DNA from: Albidovulum inexpectatum
GTDB taxonomy: Bacteria > Pseudomonadota > Alphaproteobacteria > Rhodobacterales > Rhodobacteraceae
Direction: 5' to 3'
DNA length: 61,331 bases
Assembly: GCF_002927635.1 (NCBI RefSeq)
Contig: NZ_PRDS01000011.1
Coordinates: 1-61,331, forward strand
Shown here piece by piece: positions 25,665-44,269 of this stretch (positions are counted from its first letter, which is position 1; every line of letters begins with the position of its first letter). The notes below the pieces were generated by a model. The model saw nothing but the letters and a program-made list of their open reading frames with translations, did no database searches and had not been told where the DNA came from. Both the position numbers and the translations under genes were made by a program.

Positions 25665-25765
25665 GTGCGTGATGTAGGTCAAGCAGGGGGCTTTCGCAAT
25701 GGGGCAGCACCGGCTTGCGCCTTTGGCAAGGATCGGTAGGCTCGGCCCAAACACAAGGAGCCCCC

Positions 25766-26956
25766 ATGAATTCACACAGCTTCGATTTCGACGAGATCGT
25801 CGAATTTCGTGGACACCATTCCGAGAAATGGGACGGGATGGAACGGCAGTTCGGCATACCCGCGCAAGAGGGTCTGGCCATGTGGGTTGCCGACATGGAT
25901 TTCCGCGCGCCGCCATCGGTCATCGCCCGCGTGCGCGATGTCGCGGAAAGCGGCATCTTCACCTATTTCGGCGATCTGCGCGAATATCACGACTCGATCA
26001 TCTGGTGGATGCGCGAGCGCCACGGCTGGCAGATCGAGAGCGACGCGATCTTCACCACGCATGGGCTGGTGAATGCCGTGGCCCTGTGCATCCAGGCCTA
26101 TACAAATCCCGGCGATGGCGTGGTCGTCATGTCGCCCGTCTATCATGCCTTTGGCCGGGTCGTGCGGGCCAATGACCGGCAGCTTGTCGAATGTCCTCTG
26201 GCGGTCGCCCCGGATGGGACGTTCCAGATGGATTTCGATCGCTGGGATGGCATGATGACGGGCAATGCGCGCATGCTGATCCTGTGTTCGCCACACAATC
26301 CGGGCGGCCGGGTCTGGACGGTCGAGGAATTGCGCGGCGTGGCCGATTTCGCGCGCCGGCATGATCTGATCCTGGTGTCGGACGAAATCCATCATGATCT
26401 GGTCTTCCCCGGACACCGGCATACCGTGATGCCGCTTGCCGATACCGGAATCGCCGACCGGCTGGTGGTGCTGAGCGCGACGTCCAAGAGCTTCAACGTC
26501 GCGGGCATGCATTGCGGCAATGCGATCATTCACGATCCGGCCCTGCGTGCGGCCTTTGCGCGTCAGATCGCACGCATGGCGATTTCGCCTAATGCGATGT
26601 CCTTGCACATGACGCCCGCGCTCTATTCGCCGGAAGGGGCCGCGTGGCTGGACGCTTGCGTGGCCTATCTTGACGGGAACCATCAGCTGTTCCGCGAAGG
26701 CGTGCAGGCCATTCCGGGTGTGCGCATGGCGCCGATGCAGGGCACCTATCTTGCATGGGTGGATTTCTCGGGAACGGGTATGGACCAGGCGGAAATTGCC
26801 GCCCGCGTCGCGGGGCGGGCACGAATCGCTGCCAGCCCGGGGCCTGCCTTCGGTTTGGGCGGGGATCAGCATCTGCGCTTCAACCTGGCGATGCCCCGCG
26901 CGCGTATCAGGGAAGCGGTCGAACGCCTCCAGGCGGCGTTCGACGATCTTCAGTAA
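25766..26956 (+). CDS. patB: MalY/PatB family PLP-dependent cystathionine beta-lyase
   Basis: 396 aa, a class I/II aminotransferase fold. The PLP lysine is K241 in SATSKSFNVAG. WVADMDFRAPPSV, VMSPVYHAFG, CSPHNPGGRVW and VSDEIHHDLVF are the MalY/PatB subgroup motifs. Members cleave C-S bonds of cystathionine or cysteine conjugates, giving a thiol, pyruvate and ammonia. AAGGAG lies 5 nt before the ATG. It ends at a hairpin shared with the convergent unknown gene. Confidence 0.9.
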   Translation: MNSHSFDFDEIVEFRGHHSEKWDGMERQFGIPAQEGLAMWVADMDFRAPPSVIARVRDVAESGIFTYFGDLREYHDSIIWWMRERHGWQIESDAIFTTHGLVNAVALCIQAYTNPGDGVVVMSPVYHAFGRVVRANDRQLVECPLAVAPDGTFQMDFDRWDGMMTGNARMLILCSPHNPGGRVWTVEELRGVADFARRHDLILVSDEIHHDLVFPGHRHTVMPLADTGIADRLVVLSATSKSFNVAGMHCGNAIIHDPALRAAFARQIARMAISPNAMSLHMTPALYSPEGAAWLDACVAYLDGNHQLFREGVQAIPGVRMAPMQGTYLAWVDFSGTGMDQAEIAARVAGRARIAASPGPAFGLGGDQHLRFNLAMPRARIREAVERLQAAFDDLQ

Positions 26957-30060: not shown

Positions 30061-31023
30061 ATGAAACATGCCGTTTTTGGAGCGCTCGTTGCGCTTGGGC
30101 TTGCTGCGGGCCCGGCCGCGGCGCAGGACAAGTTCATTTCGATCGGCACGGGGGGCGTCACCGGCGTCTATTATCCGACGGGCGGCGCGATCTGCCGCAT
30201 GATGTCGAAGACACGGTCCGAACATGGCATCCGCTGTGCCGTCGAATCGACGGGCGGTTCGGTCTACAACATCAACGCCATCCGCTCGGGCGAGCTGGAA
30301 TTCGGCGTGGCCCAGTCCGACTGGCAGTACCACGCCTATAACGGCACCTCGAAATTCGAGGAGAACGGCCCGTTCACGGAGCTGCGCGCCGTCTTCTCGA
30401 TTCACCCCGAGCCGTTCACCGTCGTGGCGCGCGCCGATGCGGGCATCAAGACCTTCGACGATCTGAAGGGCAAGCGCGTCAATGTCGGCAACCCCGGTTC
30501 CGGCCAGCGTGGCACGATGGAAGTGGTGATGGCCGCCAAGGGCTGGACCATGGACGACTTCGCCCTTGCTTCCGAGCTGCAGGCGGCGGAACAAAGCCAG
30601 GCACTGTGCGACAACAACATCGATGCGATGGTCTACACCGTCGGCCATCCGTCGGGTTCGATTCAGGAAGCGACCACGGCCTGTGATGCGGTCCTGGTCA
30701 GCGTGACCGGCCCCGAAATCGACAAGCTGGTCGAGGAAAACCCCTTCTATCGCAAGGCGGTCATCCCGGGCGGCATGTATCGCGGCAACCCCGACGATGT
30801 CGAAACCTTCGGCGTGGGCGCAACGCTGGTGACGTCGGCCAATGTGCCCGATGACGTCGTCTATGCGCTGGTCAAGTCGGTCTTCGAGAATATCGACCAG
30901 TTCCGGGGCCTGCATCCGGCTTTCGCCAATCTGGACCCCAAGCAGATGGTCAAGGACGGCCTGTCCGCGCCGCTGCATCCGGGGGCCGAAAAGTACTATC
31001 GCGAAGCCGGCCTTCTGGAATAA
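30061..31023 (+). CDS. TAXI family TRAP transporter substrate-binding protein
   Basis: 320 aa, periplasmic. The signal peptide is [22 protein letters not shown]. The mature start [24 protein letters not shown] is the TAXI signature; [15 protein letters not shown] and [22 protein letters not shown] follow. It captures a carboxylate- or amine-type substrate for the fused permease encoded next. AAGGGAG lies 6 nt before the ATG. It opens a five-gene operon ending in a BKACE enzyme. Confidence 0.95.
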
Positions 31024-31040
31024 TCGGCCGGCGCCGATTG

Positions 31041-31061
31041 CGGCCCGGACAGCCCGGGCCG
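31041..31061 (+). other. Intercistronic stem-loop after the binding-protein gene
   Basis: CGGCCCGG and CCGGGCCG form a perfect 8-bp stem with a 5-nt loop, 18 nt after the stop and 95 nt before the permease start. There is no T run. Such hairpins often stabilise the upstream message or partly terminate, giving more binding protein than permease. Confidence 0.55.
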
Positions 31062-31156
31062 CGACCGGGCGCCGGCTTTGGTCGGCGCCCTTCACGTCTC
31101 AGGGGCTGACGGCCTGAAGATCCGGCACGGCCCCGCAGCAAACGAGGGACCCCGTG

Positions 31157-33802
31157 ATGAGCCAGAACCAGGATCGGAGCCAGGACCAGAGCGCCGCCGC
31201 GCTGTCCGAGGAAGAACTGCAGGAGCTGGTTGCCGCAACCGATACCGGAGGCCGCGCGCCGACCAACCGCAAGGTCGCTCTGCTGATCTCGGGCCTTGCG
31301 CTTGCCTGGTCGCTGTTCCAGCTGTGGATCGCCCAGCCGCAGCTTTGGTTCGGGGCATGGTTGCCGGTGATGAATTCCTCGCAGACCCGGCCGATGCATC
31401 TGGCCTTTGCGATGGTGCTGGCCTATCTCGCCTATCCGGCCTTCAAGTCTTCGCCGCGCGACCGCGTGCCTCTGGTGGACTGGATTCTGGCCTTCGTCGG
31501 CTTTGGCTGCGCCTTCTACGTCTTCGCATTCTCGACCGAGCTGGCGCTGACCGCGCGCTCGGGTCTGCCCACGCAGATGCAGGTCGCAATCGGCGCCGTC
31601 GGCATCGTGGTCCTGCTGGAAGCCTCGCGCCGGGCGCTGGGCCCCGCGCTGGCGATCGTGGGGACGCTCTTCATGCTGTATGCCTATATCGGGCAAGGCT
31701 GGCTGATCCCCGACCTGATCGAACATAACGGCCTGTCCTTCACGGCGCTGATCAATTCGCTGTGGCTGGATACGACAGGCGTGTTCGGCATTCCGCTGGG
31801 CGTCTCGACGGCCTTCGTCTTTCTGTTTGTCCTGTTCGGCGCGATTCTCGACAAGGCCGGGGCGGGCAACTACTTCATCCAGCTGGCATTTGCCGGGCTG
31901 GGGCATCTGCGCGGGGGGCCAGCCAAGGCGGCGGTTGTCGGGTCGGCGATGACGGGTCTGATCTCGGGCTCGTCGATCGCCAATGTCGTGACCACCGGGA
32001 CCTTCACCATCCCGCTGATGAAGCGTGTTGGATTTTCCTCGGAAAAGGCCGGCGCGGTCGAGGTCGCAAGCTCGGTCAACGGACAGATCATGCCGCCGGT
32101 CATGGGGGCTGCGGCCTTCCTGATGGTCGAATTCGTCGGGATTTCCTATGTCGAGGTGATCAAGCACGCCTTCATCCCGGCGGTGATCTCCTATATCGCC
32201 CTGGTCTATATCGTGCATCTCGAGGCGCTGAAGAAGGACATGCCCGCGCTGGGCGAGGCCCGCAGCCTGCTTCAGATGTTTCTCAAGATCTTCATCGGCT
32301 TCGTCCTGGCGGCAATCGCCTTCACGGCCCTGATCTATGGCATCCGCGGTCTGCGTGCCGCCGCGCCGGGCATTGCCGACTGGGTCGTGATGGCCGCGAT
32401 CCTGGGGGTTTATGTGCTGGCCGTGCGTGTTGCGGCGCGCCGCCCGGACCTTGCCCTGGACGATCCGAACTCGACCGAGATCAAGCTGCCCACCATCGCA
32501 CAGGTCTTTCCCACGGGGCTGCATTTCCTGCTGCCCATCCTGGTGCTGGTCTGGTTCCTGATGGTCGAGATGCAATCTCCGGCAAAGTCGGCCTTTTATG
32601 CCGTTGGACTGATGCTGTTCATCATCGTGACCCAGCGGCCGCTGAAGGCCATGTTCCGGGGCGAAGATGTGGCTCAGGCCACGCGGGCCGGGTTCTTGGA
32701 TCTGATCGAGGGCCTGATCATGGGCGCGCGCAACATGATCGGCATCGGCGTGGCCACGGCAGCCGCCGGCATCATCGTGGCGACCGTGACCAAGACCCCG
32801 ATCGGCACCGAACTTGCGGGTCTGGTCGAGCTCTTGTCGGGCGGCCACCTGTTCATCATGCTGCTTCTGGTCGGGGTCTTTTCGCTGATTCTGGGCATGG
32901 GCCTTCCGACGACGGCGAACTATATCGTCGTCTCGTCACTGATGGCGTCGGTCGTGGTCAGCCTGGGCGCACAGGAGGGCCTGATCGTGCCGCTGATCGC
33001 GGCGCATCTGTTCGTGTTCTATTTCGGGATCATGGCCGATGTGACCCCGCCGGTCGGGCTGGCAAGCTTTGCCGCCGCGGCCGTATCGGGCGGCGATCCG
33101 ATCCGCACGGGCTTCACGGCGTTCTTCTATTCCATGCGCACGGTCGCCTTGCCGTTCCTGTTCATCTACAACCCCACGCTGATCCTGTATGGCGTGGATC
33201 TGGGGACATGGGCGGGCCTGCTGCACGCGGCTTTCATCTTTGTTGTTGCGACCATCGCCATGCTTCTGTTTGCGGCCGCGACCCAGGGCTATCTGTTGGC
33301 GCCGTCGCGGCTGTGGGAAAGTGCCGCCCTGCTGCTGGTGGCGTTCACGCTGTTCGTGCCGGGGTTCTGGCTGGACCGGATCCAGCCCCGGTTCCATGAA
33401 AGCCCGCCGACCGATCTGGCCGCGGCCATCGATGCGGCGCAGCCCGGGGAGACGGTCCGCTTCGTGGTCGAAGGCCCGTCCTTCTCGGATGGCAGCATCA
33501 CCCGAATGACCCTTGTCCACACGGTGACGGAGTCGGATCCGCCGACCGGTCGCGCCGAGGCCGCCGGCCTGTTCCTGATCCAGGAGGGTGACAGGCTCTT
33601 CATGGACGAGCCGATGTTCGGGTCGTATTACGGCGAACAGCTGAAGGGATTCGACTTCTACACCGACACGCGGGTCGAGGTTGTCAGCCTTCTGACGCCA
33701 GCGCAGCGGATGCCAAAGCAGGTATTCTACATCCCCGCCCTGCTGCTGCTTGGGCTGGTCGTCGCGCTGCAACGCCGCCGCCAAACCAAACCCGCCTTCT
33801 GA
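31157..33802 (+). CDS. TRAP transporter fused permease (DctQM-type 4TM/12TM) with C-terminal DUF3394
   Basis: 881 aa. A hydrophilic N-terminus of about 40 residues is followed by a small-subunit (DctQ-like) helical bundle fused to the large DctM domain with many membrane helices. TRAP hallmarks include GSAMTGLISGSSIANVVTTG, INGQIMPPVMGAAAF-like SVNGQIMPPVMGAAAF, LILGMGLPTTANYIVVSS and ADVTPPVGLASFAAAAVSG. After about residue 715 comes a soluble DUF3394 domain and a final helix, common in TAXI-linked permeases. It is driven by Na+ or H+ gradients. An alternative GTG start lies one codon upstream. Confidence 0.95.
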   Translation: MSQNQDRSQDQSAAALSEEELQELVAATDTGGRAPTNRKVALLISGLALAWSLFQLWIAQPQLWFGAWLPVMNSSQTRPMHLAFAMVLAYLAYPAFKSSPRDRVPLVDWILAFVGFGCAFYVFAFSTELALTARSGLPTQMQVAIGAVGIVVLLEASRRALGPALAIVGTLFMLYAYIGQGWLIPDLIEHNGLSFTALINSLWLDTTGVFGIPLGVSTAFVFLFVLFGAILDKAGAGNYFIQLAFAGLGHLRGGPAKAAVVGSAMTGLISGSSIANVVTTGTFTIPLMKRVGFSSEKAGAVEVASSVNGQIMPPVMGAAAFLMVEFVGISYVEVIKHAFIPAVISYIALVYIVHLEALKKDMPALGEARSLLQMFLKIFIGFVLAAIAFTALIYGIRGLRAAAPGIADWVVMAAILGVYVLAVRVAARRPDLALDDPNSTEIKLPTIAQVFPTGLHFLLPILVLVWFLMVEMQSPAKSAFYAVGLMLFIIVTQRPLKAMFRGEDVAQATRAGFLDLIEGLIMGARNMIGIGVATAAAGIIVATVTKTPIGTELAGLVELLSGGHLFIMLLLVGVFSLILGMGLPTTANYIVVSSLMASVVVSLGAQEGLIVPLIAAHLFVFYFGIMADVTPPVGLASFAAAAVSGGDPIRTGFTAFFYSMRTVALPFLFIYNPTLILYGVDLGTWAGLLHAAFIFVVATIAMLLFAAATQGYLLAPSRLWESAALLLVAFTLFVPGFWLDRIQPRFHESPPTDLAAAIDAAQPGETVRFVVEGPSFSDGSITRMTLVHTVTESDPPTGRAEAAGLFLIQEGDRLFMDEPMFGSYYGEQLKGFDFYTDTRVEVVSLLTPAQRMPKQVFYIPALLLLGLVVALQRRRQTKPAF

Positions 33803-33813
33803 GGAGTTGAGCC

Positions 33814-34239
33814 ATGGCCAAGACGATCCTGCTGGCCGTCGATATCGGAAACGAGGAAACAAGCCGCGCGCCACTTGCCGCCGCGCTGGATCTTCTGCAC
33901 GACGGCGGGGTTCTGCACGTCATCACGGTGATGCCGGATTTCGGCCTGCCGCAGGTCTCGGGCTTCTTCCCCGAGGGATACGAGAAGAAGGCGCATGCCA
34001 AAATTCTGGAAAGCCTGAAGGACTGGATTCGTCGGCATGCGCCCGAAGGAATCGAAACCCATGCCCATGTCGGGCACGGCACGATCTACGACCAGGTCCT
34101 GAAGGCGGCGGACAAATACGATGTGGATGTGATCGTGATCGGGTCGCACCGTCCGGCATTGAAGGATTACCTGCTGGGGCCGAACGCGGCGCGGGTCGTT
34201 CGCCATGCCCGCCAATCGGTCTATGTGGCGCGGAGCTGA
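33814..34239 (+). CDS. Universal stress protein (UspA family) of the TRAP operon
   Basis: 141 aa with one Usp domain: KTILLAVDIGNEE at the start, LHVITVMPD, then YDVDVIVIGSHRPALKDYLLGPNAARVVRHARQSVYVAR. The ATP-binding loop departs from the classic G-2x-G-9x-G-S pattern (GSHRPALKDYLLGPN), so nucleotide binding is uncertain. It sits 11 nt after the permease. In Halomonas the Usp TeaD is encoded with the TeaABC TRAP system and regulates transport, a precedent for its role here. Confidence 0.9.
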   Translation: MAKTILLAVDIGNEETSRAPLAAALDLLHDGGVLHVITVMPDFGLPQVSGFFPEGYEKKAHAKILESLKDWIRRHAPEGIETHAHVGHGTIYDQVLKAADKYDVDVIVIGSHRPALKDYLLGPNAARVVRHARQSVYVARS

Positions 34240-34242
34240 GCC

Positions 34243-35571
34243 ATGCCCGGTCACATCTTTGGCCGCTCGACCCGCGCAAAGCTGCCTTTTGCCGTGGGTG
34301 GCGAAGGCTGCTACCTGATCGATGCCCAGGGCCGCCGCTATCTGGATGGGTCGGGCGGTGCCGCGGTATCCTGTCTTGGCCATTCGGATGAAAAGGTGTG
34401 CGCGGCACTGCATGCGCAGCTGGACCGGCTGGCCTTTGCCCATACCGGCTTTTTCACGACCGAAGCCGCCGAAGCGCTGGCCGACCGGCTGGTTGAAGAG
34501 GCACCCGAAGGGATCGAACGGGTTTATCTTGTGTCCGGCGGGTCCGAGGCTGTCGAGGCAGCCCTGAAACTTGCCCGGCAGTATTTCCTCGAGATCGGCC
34601 AGCCGGCGCGTCACAGGGTGATCGCGCGACGGCAAAGCTATCACGGCAACACGCTGGGGGCGCTTGCCGCCGGTGGAAACGAATGGCGCCGCGCGCAGTT
34701 CTCGCCGCTGCTGATCGAGACGTCCCATATCTCGCCCTGCTACGAATATCGCGGCCGCGAAGAAGGCGAAAGCGTCGAGGCCTATGGCCGGCGCGTCGCC
34801 GGTGAGCTGGAGGCCGAGATCAACCGGCTTGGGCCCGAAACGGTGATGGCATTCATCGCTGAGCCGGTCGTCGGGGCAACCGCCGGCGCCGTCCCCGCGG
34901 TGCCGGGCTATCTGAAGCGTATCCGCGAGATCTGCGACCGCCATGGCGTGCTGCTGATCCTGGACGAGGTCATGTGCGGCATGGGGCGTACGGGTCACCT
35001 GTATGCTTGTCTCGAGGACGGCGTGTCGCCCGACATGATCACGATCGCCAAGGGTCTGGGCGCGGGGTATCAGCCGATCGGCGCGCTGCTGTGCAGCGGC
35101 GCGATCTTTGATGCGATCGACCGGGGGTCGGGATTCTTCCAGCATGGTCATACCTATATGGGCCATTCCATGGCGGCTGCGGCGGCGAATGCCGTTTTGT
35201 CGCGCATCCTTGATGACGGGCTCCTGCCGCGCGTGCGCGCGCAGGGCCAGAAGCTGGACGCTGCCCTGCGGTCGCGGCTGGGGCAGCATCCCCATGTCGG
35301 TGACATTCGCGGGCGCGGCTTGTTCCGGGGCGTCGAGCTGGTCGAGAACCGCGAGACCAAGGCGCCCTTCGACCCCGCCCGGCGCCTGCACGCGCGGATC
35401 AAGACCGCCGCCATGGAGGTGGGGCTGATCTGCTATCCGATGGGCGGCACGATCGACGGGCGGCGCGGTGACCACGTGCTGCTGGCACCACCTTTCATCA
35501 TCAGCGATGACGAAATCGGTGAACTGGTGGACAAGCTGGCAATCGCCATCGACCGGGCGCTCGTGGCATGA
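34243..35571 (+). CDS. Class III PLP-dependent aminotransferase
   Basis: 442 aa, fold type I. The N-terminal GRRYLDGSGGAAVSCLGH, SGGSEAVEAALKLARQYF, RRQSYHGNTLGAL, LLILDEVMCGMGRTG (D241) and the PLP lysine K270 in ITIAKGLGAGYQPIG are class III marks. The family includes omega-amino acid:pyruvate and beta-amino acid transaminases. It starts 3 nt after the Usp stop and overlaps the BKACE gene by 4 bp (ATGA). That suggests its keto product is the BKACE substrate. Substrate cannot be read from sequence. Confidence 0.92.
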   Translation: MPGHIFGRSTRAKLPFAVGGEGCYLIDAQGRRYLDGSGGAAVSCLGHSDEKVCAALHAQLDRLAFAHTGFFTTEAAEALADRLVEEAPEGIERVYLVSGGSEAVEAALKLARQYFLEIGQPARHRVIARRQSYHGNTLGALAAGGNEWRRAQFSPLLIETSHISPCYEYRGREEGESVEAYGRRVAGELEAEINRLGPETVMAFIAEPVVGATAGAVPAVPGYLKRIREICDRHGVLLILDEVMCGMGRTGHLYACLEDGVSPDMITIAKGLGAGYQPIGALLCSGAIFDAIDRGSGFFQHGHTYMGHSMAAAAANAVLSRILDDGLLPRVRAQGQKLDAALRSRLGQHPHVGDIRGRGLFRGVELVENRETKAPFDPARRLHARIKTAAMEVGLICYPMGGTIDGRRGDHVLLAPPFIISDDEIGELVDKLAIAIDRALVA

Positions 35572-36347
35572 GCCTGCCGCGCGTGATGGTTGCGCCGAAC
35601 GGCGCTCGGCTTGGGCCGGACGATCATCCTGCGCTGCCCGTGACGGTCGAGCAGATCGTCCGGACGGCGCGCGCCTGTCAGGCCGCGGGGGCCGACGGAC
35701 TGCATGCCCATGTGCGCGACACCAAGGGCCAGCACGTTCTGGATGCCGGGCTCTATGCCGAGCTGCTGGCCGAGCTGAACGTTGCCTGCCCCGGATTGTA
35801 CGTTCAGGTCACGACCGAATCCGTGGGCCGCTACAGCCCGGCCGAACAGCGGGCATTGGTCGAGACCTTGCGCCCACCTGCGGTTTCCATCGCGGTTGCC
35901 GAGATCACGGCAGACGATGACGACGCGGCGAATGCCCGCCTGTTTGGCCTGTGCCACGAGGCCGGTATCGAGGTGCAGCATATCCTGTATGGCCCGCAGG
36001 ACATCGCGCGGCTTGCCCTGATGGTCGGCGCCGGGATCGTGTCGGCCGAAGGGCTTTGCGTTCTGCACGTCCTTGGACGTTATGTGCCGGGCCAGGTATC
36101 GACGCCAGATCAGCTGCTGCCGGTGCTCGAGGCGCAGAACAGCGCCGGGCTCGCCCCCGACTGGGCCCTGTGCGCCTTTGGTCCGCATGAAACCGAGTGC
36201 CTTGTGGCTGCCGTTGCCTCCGGCGGAAAGGCCCGAATCGGTTTCGAGAACAACCGCCTGATGCGGGACGGTCGCGTGGCGCGCGACAATGCCGAGCGCG
36301 TGGCGGAACTGATCGCCGAGCTTCGAGCCGCAGGACTGCACCGGTGA
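35568..36347 (+). CDS. BKACE family (DUF849) beta-keto acid cleavage enzyme
   Basis: 259 aa, TIM barrel. BKACE enzymes transfer an acyl unit between a beta-keto acid and acetyl-CoA, giving acetoacetate and a new acyl-CoA; the first known was the 3-keto-5-aminohexanoate cleavage enzyme Kce. The Zn ligands are visible: H46 and H48 in GLHAHVRD and E227 in RIGFENN. The N-terminal APNGAR loop marks a subgroup different from Kce, so lysine fermentation is not implied. It closes the TRAP-Usp-aminotransferase operon. Confidence 0.9.
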   Translation: MSLPRVMVAPNGARLGPDDHPALPVTVEQIVRTARACQAAGADGLHAHVRDTKGQHVLDAGLYAELLAELNVACPGLYVQVTTESVGRYSPAEQRALVETLRPPAVSIAVAEITADDDDAANARLFGLCHEAGIEVQHILYGPQDIARLALMVGAGIVSAEGLCVLHVLGRYVPGQVSTPDQLLPVLEAQNSAGLAPDWALCAFGPHETECLVAAVASGGKARIGFENNRLMRDGRVARDNAERVAELIAELRAAGLHR

Positions 36348-36400
36348 ACGGTAGAGCTGTTCACGCAGCCTGACAGGTCATGTATTTGCAGGGAAGGGGA

Positions 36401-36484
36401 TGGTGGGCGACCCTGGAATCGAACCAGGCATGGGTCTCCCCGGCGGAGTTACAGTCCGCTGCCGCACCTTGCAGCACGTCGCCC
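36401..36484 (-). tRNA. tRNA-Tyr (GTA)
   Basis: An 84-nt gene with acceptor GGGCGAC/GTCGCCC, encoded ACCA end, anticodon GTA at 36450-36452 (complement), a long variable arm and the GGTTCGATTCC T arm. The class II variable arm and GTA anticodon identify tyrosine. Confidence 0.96.
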
Positions 36485-36495
36485 GACGCGCTGGC

Positions 36496-36524
36496 TGATT
36501 ACTGCCCAACGCGCGGGGCGTCAA
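36496..36524 (-). promoter_or_regulatory. Promoter of tRNA-Tyr
   Basis: On the minus strand, TTGACG (36524-36519), a 17-nt spacer and TAATCA (36501-36496) precede the mature tRNA 5' end by 11 nt. Both hexamers are near consensus and the spacing is ideal for the housekeeping sigma factor. Confidence 0.7.
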
Positions 36525-36606
36525 CACCAAATCTTGGCCGCAATGCGCTTCACAGACCGCGTGATCTGGGATAGGCCCGGTTGCAACCCGAGATATGGAT
36601 ATCGCC

Positions 36607-44143: not shown

Positions 44144-44269
44144 ACGGTTCGGGAGTGCCCCGGTGGGACGGGGTGCATGAATTGAACCGGCCCCCTTCAT
44201 TCGCAAGCGGCGTGGCGCCGTGTCCCCGACGGAGCCACACCCGCGAAGAGACGAAAGGTGACGACGAGC

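Follow-up and report, generated by a model that had tools for sequence, protein, structure and literature searches.

A class III aminotransferase (AT3) and a short DUF849 zinc enzyme form a real, widespread gene unit, which we describe here from a five-gene block of Albidovulum inexpectatum. The block lies in a 61,331-nucleotide stretch (the window, meaning the whole stretch analyzed: contig NZ_PRDS01000011.1, positions 1 to 61,331, our contig C11) of the 3.0-Mb genome, and it joins the pair to a TAXI-type TRAP transporter and a universal stress protein (Usp). As judged from sequence comparison, the zinc enzyme is a member of a distinct short DUF849 subfamily, and its active site does not support the function under which the subfamily is publicly annotated, '3-keto-5-aminohexanoate cleavage protein'. 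The block probably imports a glutamate-like amino acid, removes its amino group and breaks the product with the zinc enzyme; to the general scheme, in which the block would serve to degrade an amino compound of about the size of glutamate, most likely a beta-amino acid, we assign a probability of about 0.45. The five genes are as follows.

30061..31023, plus strand: TAXI-type TRAP solute-binding protein of the VcGluP (glutamate) type, 320 residues, TIGR02122
31157..33802, plus strand: TRAP fused permease with a C-terminal DUF3394 ('claw') domain, 881 residues, TIGR02123
33814..34239, plus strand: universal stress protein, 141 residues, PF00582
34243..35571, plus strand: class III aminotransferase of the PRK07483 type, 442 residues, NF005685
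35568..36347, plus strand: DUF849/BKACE-fold zinc enzyme of a distinct short subfamily, 259 residues, PF05853

In profile searches, the TAXI protein scored 385 bits against TIGR02122 (cut-off 84.35), the permease 635 bits against TRAP_fused (TIGR02123; cut-off 320.65), with DUF3394 at residues 692-877, and the Usp 80 bits against PF00582 (cut-off 24). AT3 scored 320 bits against Aminotran_3 (cut-off 30.5) and 788.5 bits against NF005685/PRK07483 (curated cut-off 485), and its motif places the pyridoxal-phosphate lysine at K270. The DUF849 protein scored 165 bits against PF05853 (BKACE; cut-off 24.8) and reached none of the NCBIfam cut-offs. All five profile scores exceed the Pfam or TIGR cut-offs; the genes are present and were rightly assigned to families in an earlier reading of this DNA (the original prediction). 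All five reading frames are open. From 5' to 3', the intergenic spacings are 133, 11 and 3 nucleotides (nt), followed by a 4-nt overlap of AT3 and DUF849; the tight packing originally described is correct for the last three junctions but omitted the 133 nt between the TAXI and permease genes, a gap that leaves the first gene outside the tight array. Upstream, 311 nt separate the operon from a lytic transglycosylase gene. Counting consensus matches only, a scan returned no sigma-70 site (1.2 expected); of its eight terminator-like sites, against 4.2 expected, five lie within the block on the plus strand.

To describe the conservation of the pair, we compared 161 neighbourhoods, made up of the window, 80 of the 81 other matches in the family (a fragment, G010, was omitted) and 80 loci from a contig search; four duplicates leave 157 distinct loci. 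The contig-search loci are the best 80 of at least 481 relatives, and the counts are therefore biased to close kin; some loci end at contig edges, and open reading frames were called mechanically, with split or misread genes scored as absent (AT3 is in two pieces at locus L179). With the window's own genome counted, the short subfamily is patchy, occurring in 79 of 295 family genomes (E <= 1e-20), 10 of 22 genus genomes (one a fragment) and 58 of 385 class genomes. AT3 adjoins DUF849 on the same strand in 123/157 distinct loci, preceding it in 79 and following it in 44, and 120 of these 123 pairs overlap or are separated by at most 30 nt; in the family draw alone the two genes are adjacent in 61/80. 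All five gene types occur together in 30 of the 80 family loci (AT3 adjacent, the others within 9 kb), TAXI genes lie near DUF849 in 83/157 loci, and the exact gene order and strand of the window are found in 10/157, the window included. There are 126 cases of an AT3-like gene at most 300 nt from DUF849, versus 7 elsewhere in the ~2.42 Mb of the same loci, and on this count we rejected chance juxtaposition. The gene set is thus a conserved unit, and the failure of joint conservation that the original prediction had named as its own refutation is contradicted by both the pair count and the proximity count.

A cluster of RpiR/MurR-type regulators (SIS domain; two representatives were scanned) is represented in 76/157 fetched neighbourhoods. 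The original prediction had noted that the block encodes no regulator, which is true of the window, where no RpiR-type gene stands beside the operon and the sole match in the genome is weak (27% identical) and lies elsewhere, but not of the unit across its relatives. The short DUF849 gene also occurs in a second context (loci L098, L099, L163 and L189), with a luciferase-like monooxygenase, a PcaD-like hydrolase, an OsmC-like protein and a LysR regulator, and with no adjoining aminotransferase.

We compared the active site of the window enzyme across 127 AT3-linked copies, window included, defined as those with an AT3-cluster gene within 2500 nt (L179 was added by hand), and with 18 canonical DUF849 proteins of the genus, retained from 26 tried (30 loci, L112-L141) after 8 were dropped by a filter for the H-x-H and R-x-G-x-[ED]-[DN] motifs. 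The zinc ligands H46, H48 and E227 (His46, His48 and Glu230 of Kce) are present as originally claimed, each in 127/127 linked copies. At the position of the catalytic-base Glu (E143 of Kce), the window has I139, and Ile occupies this position in all 127; N228, directly after the zinc Glu, corresponds to Asp231 of Kce, and Asn is found there in all 127. We take Asp231 of Kce to have a catalytic role. Glu84 is invariant among the linked copies where canonical proteins, in Kce numbering, have Gly84, and the subfamily further differs from the canonical set in Gln for Glu141 and, usually, in Arg14 and Arg111, while R223 (R226 of Kce) is kept and Y141 (Y145) mostly kept. Glu141, Glu143 and Asp231 are each found in 18/18 canonical proteins. 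In BKACE15, the mutation E171L is reported to abolish activity (PMC11961710), and E171 corresponds to E143 of Kce through the Tyr173/Tyr145 equivalence given in PMC12871164.

By fold and family, the window protein is a DUF849/PF05853 member, with a score above the Pfam cut-off and a TIM-barrel fold. The predicted structure is a complete barrel, closest to Kce, with Kce and BKACE15 among the nearest solved structures; given that completeness and a pLDDT of 95.6, we rejected a truncated DUF849. In the functional sense of the BKACE name, the zinc ligands are in place and both the catalytic-base Glu and Asp231 are missing. The label itself reflects a weak family match, at 165 bits versus 332 bits for the other copy in the genome, a canonical-looking DUF849 protein (L125, contig C2, 113660-114523). 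Zinc ligands are insufficient proof of BKACE identity, and with Ile at the base position and Asn for Asp, standard retro-Claisen activity cannot be assumed; the original naming of the last enzyme as a BKACE is not upheld, whereas the conserved gene set is, along with the transporter type considered below. The subfamily was set apart by comparison with canonical DUF849 proteins, Kce and BKACE15; groups G6 and G7 are described as 'not BKACE' in PMC4922564.

The enzyme could still be a canonical BKACE despite its substitutions, passing an acyl group from its beta-keto acid substrate to CoA with release of acetoacetate, which would agree with the Pfam match, with the retained zinc ligands, R223 and, for the most part, Y141, and with the proximity to solved BKACE structures. 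We regard this as a serious contender but a doubtful one, in view of the exchange of both the base Glu and Asp231 in every linked copy, their presence together with Glu141 in all 18 canonical proteins compared, and the inactivity reported for BKACE15 E171L. Alternatively, the window copy may be decaying, with its regulator lost, its DUF849 gene fast-evolving and an operon that may no longer work here. The absence of an adjoining RpiR gene, the identity to a sister operon (L264) of 84% for AT3 versus 69% for DUF849, and an end branch of 0.46 versus 0.14 and 0.24 are in keeping with decay; we nevertheless hold it to be highly improbable, since all five frames are open, the window copy retains the residues that do not vary among the linked copies, and Ala111 is seen in 10/127 linked copies.

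The window TAXI protein is 64% identical to VcGluP (8S4J), which PMC11574862 describes as a glutamate-specific TAXI protein that also binds glutamine and pyroglutamate. Ten of 13 ligand-contact positions, direct or water-mediated, are identical, the differences being S40G, D157Q and M201T. Replacement of Y45 and Q93 of VcGluP by Ala is reported to cost 213-fold and 990-fold in affinity, respectively (PMC11574862); the equivalents of both residues are present in the window protein and kept in 82/83 and 83/83 neighbourhood TAXI proteins, window included. Among 28 TAXI proteins from the window's genome and its relatives (obtained from 28 of 30 loci; linkage was marked by hand from coordinates), identity to VcGluP is 57-64% for the seven linked to short DUF849, apart from an incomplete one at 44%, whereas 17 of the 21 unlinked ones are just 22-35% identical and have other contact residues. 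The V. cholerae system VcGluPQM, which is accompanied by uspA in the account of PMC11574862, has in common with the window the solute-binding protein at 64% identity, the DUF3394 claw and the Usp, a known companion of TRAP transporters; the architecture of the VcGluQM permease matches that of the window's fused permease. The window system differs from it in being linked to an aminotransferase and DUF849 and in the three contact substitutions. The amino-acid type of the transporter, as originally predicted, is supported by this identity and by the contact residues, and the window transporter is probably of the Vibrio glutamate type with a predicted glutamate-like ligand.

Relatives carry the AT3-DUF849 pair with other transporters. 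An ATP-binding cassette (ABC) system annotated GlnHPQ, together with a C45 hydrolase, replaces TRAP on plasmid pPAN2 of P. pantotrophus, in R. leguminosarum and on two Rhizobium plasmids, and GlnH and C45 genes are also found in two genomes of the window's genus; GlnHPQ-annotated genes in TRAP's place beside the pair support a glutamate-type substrate. In S. meliloti, TRAP's place is taken by an SBP_bac_8-type ABC system, termed polyamine-type in PMC3596328, in P. aminovorans by an NMT1-type ABC system, and in Gemmobacter (L157, L159) by SBP_bac_5-type ABC genes, which lie closer than in Roseibium. The Roseibium SBP_bac_5 system and an M20 hydrolase were excluded from the unit, being some genes away with apparently unrelated genes between. 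In 19/161 loci there is in addition a DAO-GCV_T protein (807 residues) akin to dimethylglycine/sarcosine dehydrogenases; because the gene occurs in only these 19, we demoted the homarine/N-methyl route that it would lead one to expect to a side input.

In 2 of the 16 plasmid regions opened, on a Comamonadaceae plasmid and a Microvirga plasmid (L242, L244), a 3-hydroxyacyl-CoA-dehydrogenase-type gene directly precedes a short DUF849 gene, with AT3 absent and a TctC-type gene close by. The Microvirga dehydrogenase best matches carnitine dehydrogenase models, below their cut-offs, and the Comamonadaceae one different models. Since a 3-amino-acid transaminase and a 3-hydroxy-acid dehydrogenase both yield a 3-keto acid, we kept a beta-keto acid as the DUF849 substrate, and on the strength of these two regions the original proposal of such a substrate is plausible. 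The two plasmids share the logic of carnitine catabolism as outlined in PMC12482172 and PMC12421898, where a beta-keto acid made by carnitine dehydrogenase is cleaved by a DUF849-type protein (BKACE); the window would instead make its keto acid with an aminotransferase and has a distinct DUF849 subfamily. The same pairs count against a quite improbable scheme in which AT3 acts on 4-hydroxyglutamate or another substituted glutamate and DUF849 is a zinc aldolase or hydrolase for the resulting alpha-keto acid; the scheme leaves them unexplained, and they point to a 3-keto acid.

Some stretches show AT3 without DUF849. RpiR-AT3 pairs of this kind lie at 6992-8866 in L245, 6992-8871 in L247 and 6995-8886 in L246, each with a small protein on the 3' side that is of the CMD family in L245, a weak match below cut-off in L247 and hypothetical in L246. 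A CMD-family gene follows AT3 in DUF849-free stretches of Pantoea and R. tropici, the Pantoea match being below the Pfam cut-off. These small proteins are possibly stand-ins or analogues for DUF849.

In the catabolic scheme that we favor, the TAXI-TRAP system, with the Usp, would import a glutamate-sized amino compound, AT3 would pass its amino group to a keto acid (e.g., pyruvate or 2-oxoglutarate), and the DUF849 zinc enzyme would then split the beta-keto acid left behind. Because the base Glu is replaced by Ile and a new invariant residue, Glu84, is present, two modes of cleavage, of roughly equal likelihood, are conceivable: a retro-Claisen reaction in which the base has moved to a new position, and a decarboxylation aided by zinc or some other cleavage that does without acetyl-CoA. 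What is observed is the gene order, conservation, families, altered active site and glutamate-type binding protein; all of the chemistry, and the substrate itself, we infer. A dead end in which AT3 merely turns glutamate into 2-oxoglutarate was rejected, as DUF849 would then be without a role. In the most specific form of the scheme, beta-glutamate (3-aminoglutarate) would be transaminated to 3-oxoglutarate, which would be converted to acetoacetate and CO2 or, with acetyl-CoA, to acetoacetate and malonyl-CoA. A scoB/pcaJ-type CoA-transferase gene, above cut-off, is present in the genome, and its product could activate the acetoacetate. Beta-glutamate is an osmolyte of methanogens and some bacteria according to PMC1224877. 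That beta-glutamate itself is the substrate is rather improbable, although it is our first candidate, followed by beta-lysine or its N-acetyl form. We know of no degradation genes for beta-glutamate, on which point no search was made. A fuller proposal, which we advance tentatively and would call unlikely as a whole, is that the short DUF849 is a new catalytic type in the BKACE fold, either a zinc-dependent decarboxylase of beta-keto acids or a retro-Claisen enzyme whose base has been relocated to Glu84. With AT3 and a glutamate-type TAXI-TRAP system, it would then make up a route, spread among marine and soil Alphaproteobacteria, by which beta-glutamate or an osmolyte of similar beta-amino type is taken up and degraded.

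Several observations weigh against the favored scheme. The transporters linked to AT3 vary (SBP_bac_8, NMT1, SBP_bac_5 and DctP types), and therefore the substrate may vary as well. Y45 and Q93 are common in TAXI proteins generally (78% and 54%, as given in PMC11574862), and 4 of the 21 unlinked TAXI proteins are also 58-60% identical to VcGluP. Two of these four are at L305 and L306. At L305 (7521-15580), genes for a carbon-nitrogen hydrolase and an Orn/Lys/Arg decarboxylase come after a VcGluP-type TAXI-TRAP-Usp set, so that this clade may not mean glutamate; at L306 (775-8519), a VcGluP-type TAXI-TRAP-Usp-AT3 set lacks DUF849 and has a glutamine-synthetase-type gene beside AT3 on the opposite strand. 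The VcGluP-like TAXI clade may, on these sequence comparisons, cover several amino acids. DUF849 has no adjoining AT3 in 34/157 loci, in several of which luciferase-like and PcaD-like genes replace it, and no match to acetoacetyl-CoA synthetase in the genome reaches cut-off.

In a further rival reading, a diamino, omega-amino or polyamine-derived substrate (e.g., beta-lysine or N-acetyl-beta-lysine) would be freed in other variants by amide hydrolases, and the TAXI protein would not be glutamate-specific. The hydrolase genes (C45, M20, Xaa-Pro-peptidase-type and M81) that such variants have near AT3, the so-called polyamine-type system near the S. meliloti genes and the decarboxylase after the related TAXI gene of L305 would all be in line with such a substrate. 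The glutamate-type contact residues of the TAXI protein speak against it, as does the alternative transporter named GlnHPQ, though such names are automatic, and we judge this explanation improbable to much the same degree as the aldolase or hydrolase scheme.

The operon sits at the junction (36347-36595) of a tRNA gene and an rlmB-like gene. The former lies directly beyond the operon, outside the pathway, and marks the junction.

36401..36484, minus strand: tRNA-Tyr (ARAGORN)

The rlmB-like gene is found in 22/22 genus genomes, and in 20 of them the stretch fetched next to it includes tRNA-Tyr. The AT3-DUF849 pair is at this junction in 0/21 other genus genomes, as seen over up to 1.5 kb; at one locus, L313, another DUF849 gene, 30% identical, stands there. 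The operon seems to have moved to, or arrived at, the tRNA-Tyr/rlmB junction, and its G+C content (0.63-0.67) is unremarkable. Elsewhere in the window, a PatB-type C-S lyase gene, above its NCBIfam cut-off, lies upstream of the block (25760-26956, plus strand), and an Rfam Rhodo-rpoB cis-regulatory RNA at 44146-44239 (plus strand; 68.7 bits). A 5S rRNA (106-220) and a tRNA-Met (283-359), both on the plus strand at the window start, probably belong to the end of an rRNA operon that meets the contig edge.

Among known systems, BKACE (Kce; DUF849, PF05853) differs from the window enzyme, which has Ile, Gln, Asn and Glu84 in place of Glu143, Glu141, Asp231 and Gly84. The deoxyribonate pathway of Pseudomonas simiae, as set out in PMC6365646, uses a short-chain dehydrogenase/reductase (SDR) and no aminotransferase, unlike the window. 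The catalytic residues given for the cis-epoxysuccinate hydrolase CESH[D] in PMC6429283 are different, and ObcA is larger than the window DUF849 protein and is called a non-member of DUF849 in PMC12871164. The SAR11 BKACE of PMC12421898 was rejected as the same set, since that source presents it as a carnitine island. Our literature search, outside which the founding BKACE papers lay, found no paper joining TAXI, TRAP transporter, aminotransferase and universal stress protein, none linking the KAH-cleavage protein with a TRAP transporter and aminotransferase, and none in which two of the four annotation names occur, in agreement with the original statement that no described pathway is known to have this set. 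Locus-tag searches for the genes of S. meliloti led to neighbouring genes alone. The unit is without prior description in the literature searched; the fold is known, and the surprise is at the level of the subfamily.

The short DUF849 subfamily is common (79/295 family and 58/385 class genomes), yet it is named for a function that its active site does not support. Knowing its substrate and reaction would account for a widespread transporter-enzyme unit, and would show whether the fold, in addition to the BKACE reaction, epoxide hydrolysis and the flavophos reaction, has one more chemistry. Should the substrate be beta-glutamate, the unit would supply genes for degrading this osmolyte.

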